A stretch of 47,520 nt of DNA from a virus, in the IMG/VR virus record IMGVR_UViG_3300032050_006297, positions 1 through 47,520 of that record; one strand, written 5' to 3'. Each line of letters starts with the position of its first letter. The stretch's first letter is position 1. This document shows, one piece after another, positions 3,888-5,745 of this stretch. A model generated the notes under the pieces. That model worked only from the letters and a program-made list of their open reading frames with translations, had not been told where the DNA came from and made no database searches. Both the position numbers and the translations under genes were made by a program.

Positions 3888-4051
3888 ACTACCGGCGCTT
3901 ATCTCAGGACTTTCTCGATGACATCGTGATGGAGCACGGCGTAAGCTACGATACGGCTCGCGTGTTATTCATGATGTGGCTTGTCGGTATGAAGCACTGG
4001 GAGCGTAAGTGTGATGCCTTGCTAGACTATTTGCTCAAGGATCAATCATGA
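3884..4051 (+). CDS. Small conserved protein of 55 residues (arm A)
   Basis: Unrecognised acidic-to-neutral helical protein. It begins at GTG 3884, overlapping the helicase stop as GTGA, and ends overlapping the nuclease start as ATGA. The counterpart at 41217-41378 shares DDIVME.GVS.D.ARV and the C-terminal YLL, and has the same overlaps, so the short gene is real although neither copy exceeds 60 residues. It may couple translation between helicase and nuclease or bind one of them; no function can be assigned. Confidence 0.72.
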   Translation: MNYRRLSQDFLDDIVMEHGVSYDTARVLFMMWLVGMKHWERKCDALLDYLLKDQS

Positions 4052-4371
4052 CTGAACACCAACTACAAACCCTATGCTTCACTTGGCATTGGAATAACCG
4101 CCCTGACGAGCGGGGCTTATTGTACATGAATCACAATAATCCTCGCGATGCTAGGCACGGCGCGAGTCTCAAAGTGATGGGTTTGGTGGCAGGCGTAGCT
4201 GACATGACATATATCCACCCCGACGGGTCAGGCGTAACCTTCTTAGAGTTCAAAGCCGAGAAAGGTAGGCAAAGCGCCTCGCAGGTTTGGTGGCAGTCAA
4301 CGGTCGAGCGATCAGGATGCAATTACAAGATTATCAAGAGTTTTGAAGATTTTAGAGAGTGCTTATTATGA
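4048..4371 (+). CDS. VRR-NUC domain nuclease (arm A)
   Basis: Compact 107-residue protein matching stand-alone phage VRR-NUC nucleases, which are PD-(D/E)XK-fold enzymes acting on branched or structured DNA. The core shows GVADMTY, then FLEFKAEKGRQS with the E-x-K pair, then QVWW. The N-terminal NNPRDARHGA segment is also typical. It follows the SF2 helicase and a small linker gene in both arms, which suggests a nuclease-helicase pair used in replication or recombination. ATGA overlaps at both ends point to translational coupling. The homologue is at 41371-41691. Confidence 0.82.
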   Translation: MTEHQLQTLCFTWHWNNRPDERGLLYMNHNNPRDARHGASLKVMGLVAGVADMTYIHPDGSGVTFLEFKAEKGRQSASQVWWQSTVERSGCNYKIIKSFEDFRECLL

Positions 4372-5126
4372 GGCATATCGGATTATTTGCGGGTATCGGA
4401 GGTTTTGAACTTGCCGCCCGTTGGATGGGATGGAATACCATTGCATGGAGTGAATGGGATCCATTTTGTCAAAAAGTATTATCTTACCACTTTCCCGAGG
4501 CGAAAGGCTATGGAGACATCAAGCAAGCAGACTTTACACAATACCGAGGGCAATGCGACATCCTTACAGGTGGATTCCCATGTCAGCCATACAGCGTCGC
4601 AGGCAAGCGACTCGGCAAAGAAGACGAGCGACATCTTTGGCCGGAAATGCTTAGGGTTATTAGAGAAGTACGGCCGAGGTGGATTATTGGAGAGAATGTT
4701 CGCGGGCTACTTAGTTGGAATGAAGGGGTGGTATTCGAAGAGGTGTGCACTGACTTGGAAAGTGAAGGATACGAAGTCCAAGCGTTTATTATTCCAGCTG
4801 CAGGCGTCGGCGCTCCCCACCGAAGAGAAAGAGTTTGGATTGTTGCCAACGCCGAAAACACAAGACTCTCGACATGCTTTGAGGGATCGAGGCAAGAGCA
4901 ATTTAGGCGAAGAGATGAGCGAACTAGCTTTTCAGAACACTGGGAAAACTTCCCAACTATCTCCCCTGTTTGTGGAGGAGATGATGGGCTTCCCTCGGAA
5001 TTGGACGGTATTACCATTCCAAAGTGGAGAAAGGAAAGCATAAAAGCGTATGGTAATGCGATAGTACCTCAAGTTGCTTATCAATTATTCCAAGCAATAA
5101 AAAATACTAAGTCCCTTGATTATTAA
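4368..5126 (+). CDS. C5 cytosine-specific DNA methyltransferase (arm A only)
   Basis: SAM-dependent DNA methyltransferase, likely protecting phage DNA from host restriction. The 252 residues contain the family motifs in order: GLFAGIGGFE (SAM binding), GGFPCQPYSVAGKR with catalytic Cys near residue 71, GENVRGLL (motif VI), APHRRERVW (motif VIII) and YGNAIVPQVA (motif X). The target-recognition segment is short, so the protein is smaller than typical bacterial Dcm enzymes. ATG 4368 overlaps the nuclease stop; an upstream GTG at 4359 is possible but less likely. No endonuclease partner is visible. Arm B lacks this gene. A second long reading frame runs through it. Confidence 0.93.
   Translation: MRHIGLFAGIGGFELAARWMGWNTIAWSEWDPFCQKVLSYHFPEAKGYGDIKQADFTQYRGQCDILTGGFPCQPYSVAGKRLGKEDERHLWPEMLRVIREVRPRWIIGENVRGLLSWNEGVVFEEVCTDLESEGYEVQAFIIPAAGVGAPHRRERVWIVANAENTRLSTCFEGSRQEQFRRRDERTSFSEHWENFPTISPVCGGDDGLPSELDGITIPKWRKESIKAYGNAIVPQVAYQLFQAIKNTKSLDY
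4510..5043 (+). CDS. Overlapping gene inside the C5 methyltransferase gene (177 residues)
   Basis: A long open frame lies wholly inside the methyltransferase gene in another phase. It is open from TTG 4387 (218 residues); ATG 4510 gives a METSSK start. The protein is not low-complexity: it carries FGRKCLGLLEK, a W-rich WYSKRCALTWKVKDTKSKRL, FQLQASALPTEEKEFGLLPTPK and the C-terminal FVEEMMGFPRNWTVLPF. From general knowledge of phage proteins, sequences with LTWK...FQL...GLLPTP...MMGFP..W recur next to or over phage C5 methyltransferases, so I infer a true dual-coding gene. Its function is unknown. No clear ribosome-binding site marks the start, and a conservation test is decisive. Confidence 0.5.
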   Translation: METSSKQTLHNTEGNATSLQVDSHVSHTASQASDSAKKTSDIFGRKCLGLLEKYGRGGLLERMFAGYLVGMKGWYSKRCALTWKVKDTKSKRLLFQLQASALPTEEKEFGLLPTPKTQDSRHALRDRGKSNLGEEMSELAFQNTGKTSQLSPLFVEEMMGFPRNWTVLPFQSGERKA

Positions 5127-5163: not shown

Positions 5164-5745
5164 GTGGAGCATTTTTATCAAACGATTAACGGCTGGTGTG
5201 ATTATGAGGACATATATCGCGAGGCCATAACAAGATCTGAAGACGGTGCGGTCTTTGTTGAGATTGGAGCGTTCAAAGGCAAGAGCGGAGCTTTTGCCGG
5301 TGTGGAGATTCTGAATAGTGGCAAGAAGATTATGCTTAACTTAGTGGATCACTTTAAGGGCAATACAGAGCACTTAGATGTCAAGTCCACATGGTATGAG
5401 TCCGAGCTTGCGCAAAACCCTGAATACCTATTCGAGCTTTGCACAAAGAACTTAGAGCCGGTCAAGGATGTGGTGAATATCATTAGAAGGAGCTCAGTCC
5501 AAGCGGCTAAGCAGTTCAAAGCTAATAGCTTAGACTTCATCTTTATTGACGGTTCGCATGATACCGTCTCGGTATGTCTTGATATTGATACATGGTTCCC
5601 TAAATTGAAAGTAGGTGGTATCATTGCAGGACATGACTACAAGTCGCATAGAGAAGTAGAGATTGCAGTTAATTCAAGATTCCCTATAGGAGTGCATAAG
5701 CGCGGGGCTTCTTGGCTATTTTACAAAGAAGGAGAGTTTAAATGA
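5164..5745 (+). CDS. Class I SAM-dependent methyltransferase, Methyltransf_24 type (arm A)
   Basis: Small-molecule or sugar methyltransferase of the Methyltransf_24 group. It shows FVEIGAFKGKS (SAM-binding motif I), then VDHFKG after the second strand, DFIFIDGSHD and GGIIAGHDY. The start is GTG 5164 after a GGAG; the arm B homologue starts with ATG at the aligned residue (NHYYQ). The target is unknown. Because glycosyltransferase genes follow in both arms, it may modify a glycan rather than DNA. Its end overlaps the next ATG. Confidence 0.85.
   Translation: MEHFYQTINGWCDYEDIYREAITRSEDGAVFVEIGAFKGKSGAFAGVEILNSGKKIMLNLVDHFKGNTEHLDVKSTWYESELAQNPEYLFELCTKNLEPVKDVVNIIRRSSVQAAKQFKANSLDFIFIDGSHDTVSVCLDIDTWFPKLKVGGIIAGHDYKSHREVEIAVNSRFPIGVHKRGASWLFYKEGEFK

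Follow-up and report, generated by a model that had tools for sequence, protein, structure and literature searches.

A nested reading frame in a viral C5 cytosine methyltransferase gene probably encodes the second subunit of a split enzyme

A C5 cytosine methyltransferase gene, alpha, in the virus record studied here contains a second open frame over much of its length, raising the question of whether that frame is translated and what its product contributes. The window that we analysed is the whole record, 47,520 bases. The sequence-only reading described a second frame at 4387–5043 with the motifs LTWK, LLPTPK and MMGFPRNW, and this was borne out, the +1 frame (+ strand) being stop-free for 218 codons counted from a TTG. 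The gene nested in it, beta, takes up 534 of the 759 nt of alpha, ~70% of the gene, so that an almost full-length overprint, as first described, is an overstatement. The features of the locus are as follows.

4368–5126, + strand: alpha, C5 cytosine methyltransferase ORF (ATG 4368, TAA 5124–5126); 252 aa, with motifs I–VIII and X and no motif IX
4510–5043, + strand: beta, nested +1-frame gene (ATG 4510, TAA 5043); 177 aa, with an LTWK hairpin, an LPTP module and a motif IX-like block
4386–4403, + strand: alpha motif I (FAGIGG); invariant columns in alignment A2; outside the overlap
4569–4589, + strand: alpha motif IV (GGFPCQP, with the catalytic Cys); invariant columns in alignment A2
4692–4700, + strand: alpha motif VI (ENV); alignment A2
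4750–4761, + strand: beta LTWK motif, beta 81–84; alignment A1, W83 invariant
4818–4838, + strand: alpha HRRERVW, which we take to be motif VIII; alignment A2
4843–4854, + strand: beta LPTP module, beta 112–115; alignment A1
4957–5004, + strand: beta motif IX-like block LSPLFVEEMMGFPRNW, beta 150–165; hhalign match to canonical motif IX and beta-frame codon periodicity
5049–5069, + strand: alpha motif X (YGNAIVP), 65 nt past the Gly of the beta MGFP (62 from the next Phe); outside the overlap

On its 5′ side alpha is adjoined by an ORF at 4048–4371 with a weak VRR-NUC match (Pfam, 5.3e-4, under the cut-off), and on its 3′ side by a Methyltransf_24 protein at 5164–5745 (Pfam). An antisense ORF at 4583–5041 (− strand, 152 aa) was set aside as not conserved: of 91 genes, 1, 0 and 0 lack stops in the three antisense frames.

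Of 50,697 phage records searched by tblastn, 22 encode a relative of the second-frame protein, and 223 of the same set encode one of the form found in Escherichia phage K1H. In IMG/VR, 485 candidate stretches were examined and beta relatives identified in 471 of them; 80 loci were kept from these 471, and every one of the 80 carries an alpha relative in the neighbouring frame (47–67% identity over the best-scoring segment). Alignments A1 and A2 comprise 62 of these 80 loci plus the studied locus, with short, cut, redundant and start-less loci omitted. In addition, an alpha profile built from the beta-selected loci retrieved 510 bacterial relatives, and in the best 80 of them, mostly from Bacteroidota, beta is present in the +1 frame in 80/80 and fully nested in 78/80. 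Among 12 phages examined from 60 listed methyltransferase phages, the enzyme is nested in 4, split in 2 and single-chain in 6, and beta is therefore not general to C5 methyltransferases.

The proposal of two-frame coding stood up to the stops of the second frame, the fourfold sites of alpha and the bacterial loci, and we consider it genuine and well supported by these sequence comparisons. Specifically, when alpha codons are permuted among synonymous positions, leaving the alpha protein unchanged, the beta frame acquires a mean of 5.83 stops, versus 0 in 90 of 90 overprinted genes (90 of 91 genes were taken; FoX4, whose beta is not nested, was left out). The frequent stops that would speak against dual coding are thus absent among close relatives. 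The third frame, serving as a control, has 15.7 stops versus the 16.4 expected under the same shuffling, and the +1 frame of canonical single-chain phage methyltransferases is broken in 69/69 genes, with a mean of 10.7 stops (69 of 80 canonical loci were used).

Furthermore, synonymous change is reduced, as the sequence-only reading had anticipated. Fourfold-site identity of alpha in the overlap is 0.615, 0.658, 0.748 and 0.868 for pairs grouped into four bins by protein identity (0.5–0.9); in the same order of bins it is 0.354, 0.421, 0.518 and 0.648 at the N-terminal end outside the overlap, and 0.338, 0.335, 0.424 and 0.635 at the C-terminal end. The fifth bin (0.9–0.999, 7 pairs) shows no difference, with 0.924 in the overlap versus 0.907 and 0.940. 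When disjoint pairs are drawn (~31 per replicate), the overlap is the more conserved region in 29.6 of them on average, and in the worst replicate by 26 to 5.

The mismatch rates at single codon positions show where along the gene the second frame is constrained. Outside the overlap, position 3 of alpha is the most variable position at both ends (0.526 and 0.535), and its mismatch is 0.481 across motif IV, 0.376 across motifs VI–VIII and 0.293 at the LTWK hairpin, where it falls under that of alpha position 1 (0.318). At the motif IX block, codon periodicity turns to the beta frame, with mismatches of 0.112, 0.171 and 0.297 at beta positions 1, 2 and 3 (0.171 at alpha position 3 versus 0.297), and it returns to the alpha frame at motif X. 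The motif IX of 64 distinct single-chain enzymes displays ordinary frame-0 periodicity (0.271/0.180/0.559). The first third of beta is under weak constraint beyond that of alpha (alpha position-3 mismatch of 0.48 versus 0.53 outside), and the last half, its variable centre excepted, is under stronger constraint than the first third.

Beta likely starts at ATG 4510, which would give a protein of 177 aa. We prefer this start because in many relatives the frame is closed by a stop shortly 5′ of the ATG position, and because the ATG is kept in all 91 rows, at ATG 4510 or within a few codons of it (offsets of −4 to +7; the script gave preference to an ATG within 16 codons). An ATG falls inside a six-codon window in 80 of 80 rows, versus 42.5 expected under synonymous shuffles (80 of 81 rows were used). 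In addition, AGAGGTG or GGGAGGTG is located 5′ of the beta ATG in Paenibacillus phages Lily, Harrison and DevRi.

These start-codon data bear on two other ways of accounting for the open frame. In one, ribosomes would shift by programmed frameshifting from alpha into the beta frame and make an alpha-beta fusion; a shift past motif VIII would join motifs I–VIII to the LPTP and motif IX blocks, in the manner of the single-chain Aggie enzyme described below. However, the internal ATG is conserved, many relatives have in-frame stops upstream of it, the start is preceded by the above sequences in the three Paenibacillus phages, and such a fusion would stop before motif X, all of which makes frameshifting highly unlikely. 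In the other, the frame would be an untranslated by-product of the composition of alpha. The beta profile does give partial matches in the +1 frame of canonical methyltransferases, and these, with the weak constraint on the first third of beta, make the similarity there partly a shadow of alpha, but the tests of stops, fourfold sites, periodicity and start codons all come out above the alpha-only expectation, leaving this explanation with very little probability.

What, then, would a translated beta do? The methyltransferase frame had been described as complete, with all catalytic motifs, and this is wrong. Alpha matches PF00145 at 3.4e-50 over profile positions 1–169 of 324 only, while the Matisse enzyme, a canonical control, covers 1–324; in a profile search of the PDB, alpha aligns to residues 14–178 only of M.HhaI (8.6e-32). 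Motif IX was not found in the alpha frame with PF00145, the PDB search or a motif search, and the complete single-chain layout of PF00145 is not what this locus has, its motifs being divided between two frames. A structural model of alpha matches M.HhaI with a Z score of 21.7 at 3.2 Å (model residues 1–252 on chain residues 12–326, 215/327 aligned), a modelled match that fits a large domain without the small domain. Alpha belongs to phrog_363 (9.5e-73; PHROGs label, DNA methyltransferase), and Pfam and PADLOC detect alpha and miss beta.

The missing motif appears to reside in beta. With hhalign, the beta profile gives a single match against 43 canonical enzymes, placing beta 145–171 on motif IX with a score of 33.6, versus 11.7 for reversed columns and at most 20.5 for 40 column shuffles; the match is short, and its E-value of 0.0009 goes with a probability of 23%. 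When 63 beta proteins were scanned with a PSSM of canonical motif IX, 62 had their best window at the MGFP block; the median score of −23.3 does not reach the −14.0 that marks the 99.9th percentile of shuffles. In all 116 loci with both motifs recognised, out of 172 sequences, motif IX lies in the +1 frame and motif X in the alpha frame. Their commonest distance, found in 103 of the 116, is 65 nt from the Gly of MGFP (62 from the Phe), close to the 69 nt that is both the commonest and the median distance in single-chain enzymes.

For beta as a whole, the profile found no sequence in the PDB up to an E-value of 10, the AlphaFold model of beta alone is poor (pLDDT 52, pTM 0.26), and Foldseek with that model returned no trustworthy fold match (best E 0.62). 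Beta has no convincing family among those of Pfam, NCBIfam and PADLOC, only a few chance-level Pfam matches, and it falls in phrog_1008 (1.1e-18), the group that holds the beta family and whose PHROGs label, DNA methyltransferase, does not separate a subunit from a complete enzyme. These searches, together with the layout of the overlap, speak to the idea that beta is a hidden mobile element, like the HNH endonuclease encoded out of frame in the methylase gene of phage ShiLan. An arrangement of that kind is reported in actinophage methylase genes (PMC11855218); yet the overlap here spans conserved motifs IV–VIII with no insertion, beta has no HNH family match in Pfam, and it is present in 80/80 bacterial relatives (the best 80 of 510), so that this idea is barely credible.

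Single-chain and split relatives link the blocks of beta to those of a complete enzyme. Gp53 of mycobacteriophage Aggie is one chain of 550 aa whose single frame holds motifs I–VIII and X together with several LPTP modules and an MMGWP block. The alpha/beta pair shares with it the LPTP modules and the MMGWP block, with motif X behind them; the difference is that Aggie gp53 has everything in one frame, and the studied locus uses two. The beta profile finds the Aggie enzyme at 4.1e-7 (17 proteins searched), and this enzyme matches both phrog_1008 (3.9e-71) and the canonical phrog_116 (2.9e-81). Truncating beta-family proteins ahead of motif X removes the phrog_116 match, and the link to phrog_116 may therefore lean partly on motif X. 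In addition, mycobacteriophage OKCentral2016 divides the enzyme between gp78 and gp77 (L174 1477–2470), whose genes overlap in part; the second is beta-like and bears motifs IX and X.

What we observe is coding in both frames, a motif IX-like block that beta has and alpha lacks, and single-chain relatives with that block in frame; on this sequence evidence the locus very probably encodes a heterodimeric C5 methyltransferase of the M.EcoHK31I type, with beta nested in the alpha gene. The sequence-only reading had given the product no known role and had suggested a regulator of the methyltransferase or an anti-restriction factor. The first view is not supported and the second is the poorer one: beta holds the motif IX block and the LPTP modules that alpha lacks, and an enzyme subunit is therefore the better reading. 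The lack of a convincing Pfam, NCBIfam or PADLOC family leaves room for another activity, but if beta were an independent regulatory or anti-restriction protein co-produced with the methyltransferase, it would remain unexplained why alpha is missing motif IX, why the distance from the IX-like block to motif X is canonical and why the single-chain Aggie enzyme has the LPTP and IX blocks in frame. We regard such a separate role as very unlikely.

As a subunit of such a heterodimer, beta would have its own initiation at ATG 4510, in the +1 frame, and would probably be translated from the same transcript as alpha. Alpha, in frame 0, would form the large catalytic domain with motifs I–VIII and X, including AdoMet binding and the catalytic Cys, and beta would supply the small domain, with motif IX and with LPTP modules that likely serve in target recognition. 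An active methyltransferase with sequence specificity would require the two to associate, and its methylation would shield phage DNA from host restriction. We infer that the heterodimer forms, that its activity depends on beta, that beta recognises the target and that the enzyme has this anti-restriction role.

The LPTP region varies in a way that may reflect changes of specificity. Beta relatives in alignment A1 are 169–256 aa long and carry 1–5 LPTP-like units, and one module (TREE...NGT) is found in 13 of 63 backgrounds. In two pairs of loci, L014/L032 and L028/L061, the flanks share mostly 83–98% DNA identity and the central LPTP region ~47–54%. These few chosen pairs allow the tentative suggestion, which we would sooner doubt than accept, that phages and bacteria swap recognition cassettes, each swap altering both overlapping subunits together. 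If this is true, specificity would be a dual-frame module of alpha and beta, and target domains would be shuffled under double coding.

Annotation of these loci is uneven. Nested pairs are already annotated in the records of Lily, DevRi, K1H and PhiXhv-5. In Porphyromonas phage 022a (L183 1501–2238), an unannotated +1-frame protein has an ATG start (METSEQ...) and a motif IX-like block at its end. For three E. coli prophage loci (L272 2774–3694, L273 2863–4032 and L274 2878–3684), RefSeq gives alpha alone; their +1 frames are open for 257, 343 and 223 codons, respectively, with LTWK/LPTP-like and MGFP-like blocks, and the L273 alpha, called two pseudogene pieces in RefSeq, translates without an internal stop. 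In mycobacteriophage OfUltron, gp75/gp76 (L179 1501–2260) is a C5 methyltransferase divided between frames in which the motif IX pattern found no match.

The nested arrangement is known from one old laboratory example; here it is widespread in phages and bacteria and mostly omitted from annotations. New are the breadth of the family, the dual-frame evidence and the apparent exchange of recognition modules altering both frames at once. An overlapping ORF of a puzzling kind can now be tested as an enzyme subunit, and an overprint that is among the longer conserved ones of phages turns out to be common (471 IMG/VR stretches; 80/80 mostly Bacteroidota loci). Methyltransferases cloned or annotated from alpha-only records would miss a part that is likely needed, and nested alpha/beta genes would offer a natural system for the evolution of recognition domains in two frames.

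We found no description of the phage family as a heterodimer in the literature, most subscription papers being beyond reach, so that this does not amount to absence from print. Paenibacillus phage Lily gp62/gp63, DevRi 56/57 and Escherichia phage K1H ORF29/ORF28 share with our locus a nested +1-frame beta gene, labelled in the Lily, DevRi and K1H records 'g62 internal gene', DNA cytosine methyltransferase or 'Mte8-like'; these pairs are distant in sequence, and the record fields shown state no subunit role. An Mte8-like protein is named in PMC5582158, M.EcoHK31I is mentioned in PMC6456624 and PMC4014571, and the overlap described in PMC11445585 is that of Rz/Rz1, with no bearing on the methyltransferase pair. 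The EcoHK31I system itself was not identified among the plasmids and E. coli genomes searched, and the three inspected out of 40 listed E. coli matches are set among phage-type genes.

M.AquI (CYCGRG) is a split C5 methyltransferase, as alpha/beta would be, and its two polypeptides make one enzyme with motifs IX–X on the smaller (PMC3404938). M.AquI beta bears both IX and X, whereas motif X here stays in the alpha frame, so the layout is not of the AquI type; OKCentral2016 gp78/gp77 is nearer to M.AquI in motif distribution than our locus is. For M.EcoHK31I (YGGCCR), Lee et al. are said to have placed the smaller gene, in 1995, in another frame inside the larger gene, a layout that beta shares. 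M.EcoHK31I is described as naturally split in PMC3439449 and, in PMC3404938, as two polypeptides, the larger with motifs I–VIII, X and a predicted target recognition domain and the smaller with motif IX. Alpha and beta resemble it in both respects, a large subunit with I–VIII and X without IX and a small subunit with IX. They differ in that the predicted target recognition domain of M.EcoHK31I is on the larger subunit in that description (PMC3404938), whereas the LPTP modules and motif IX are here both on beta. Likened by motif layout to the descriptions of M.EcoHK31I, the locus fits the EcoHK31I pattern and not that of AquI.
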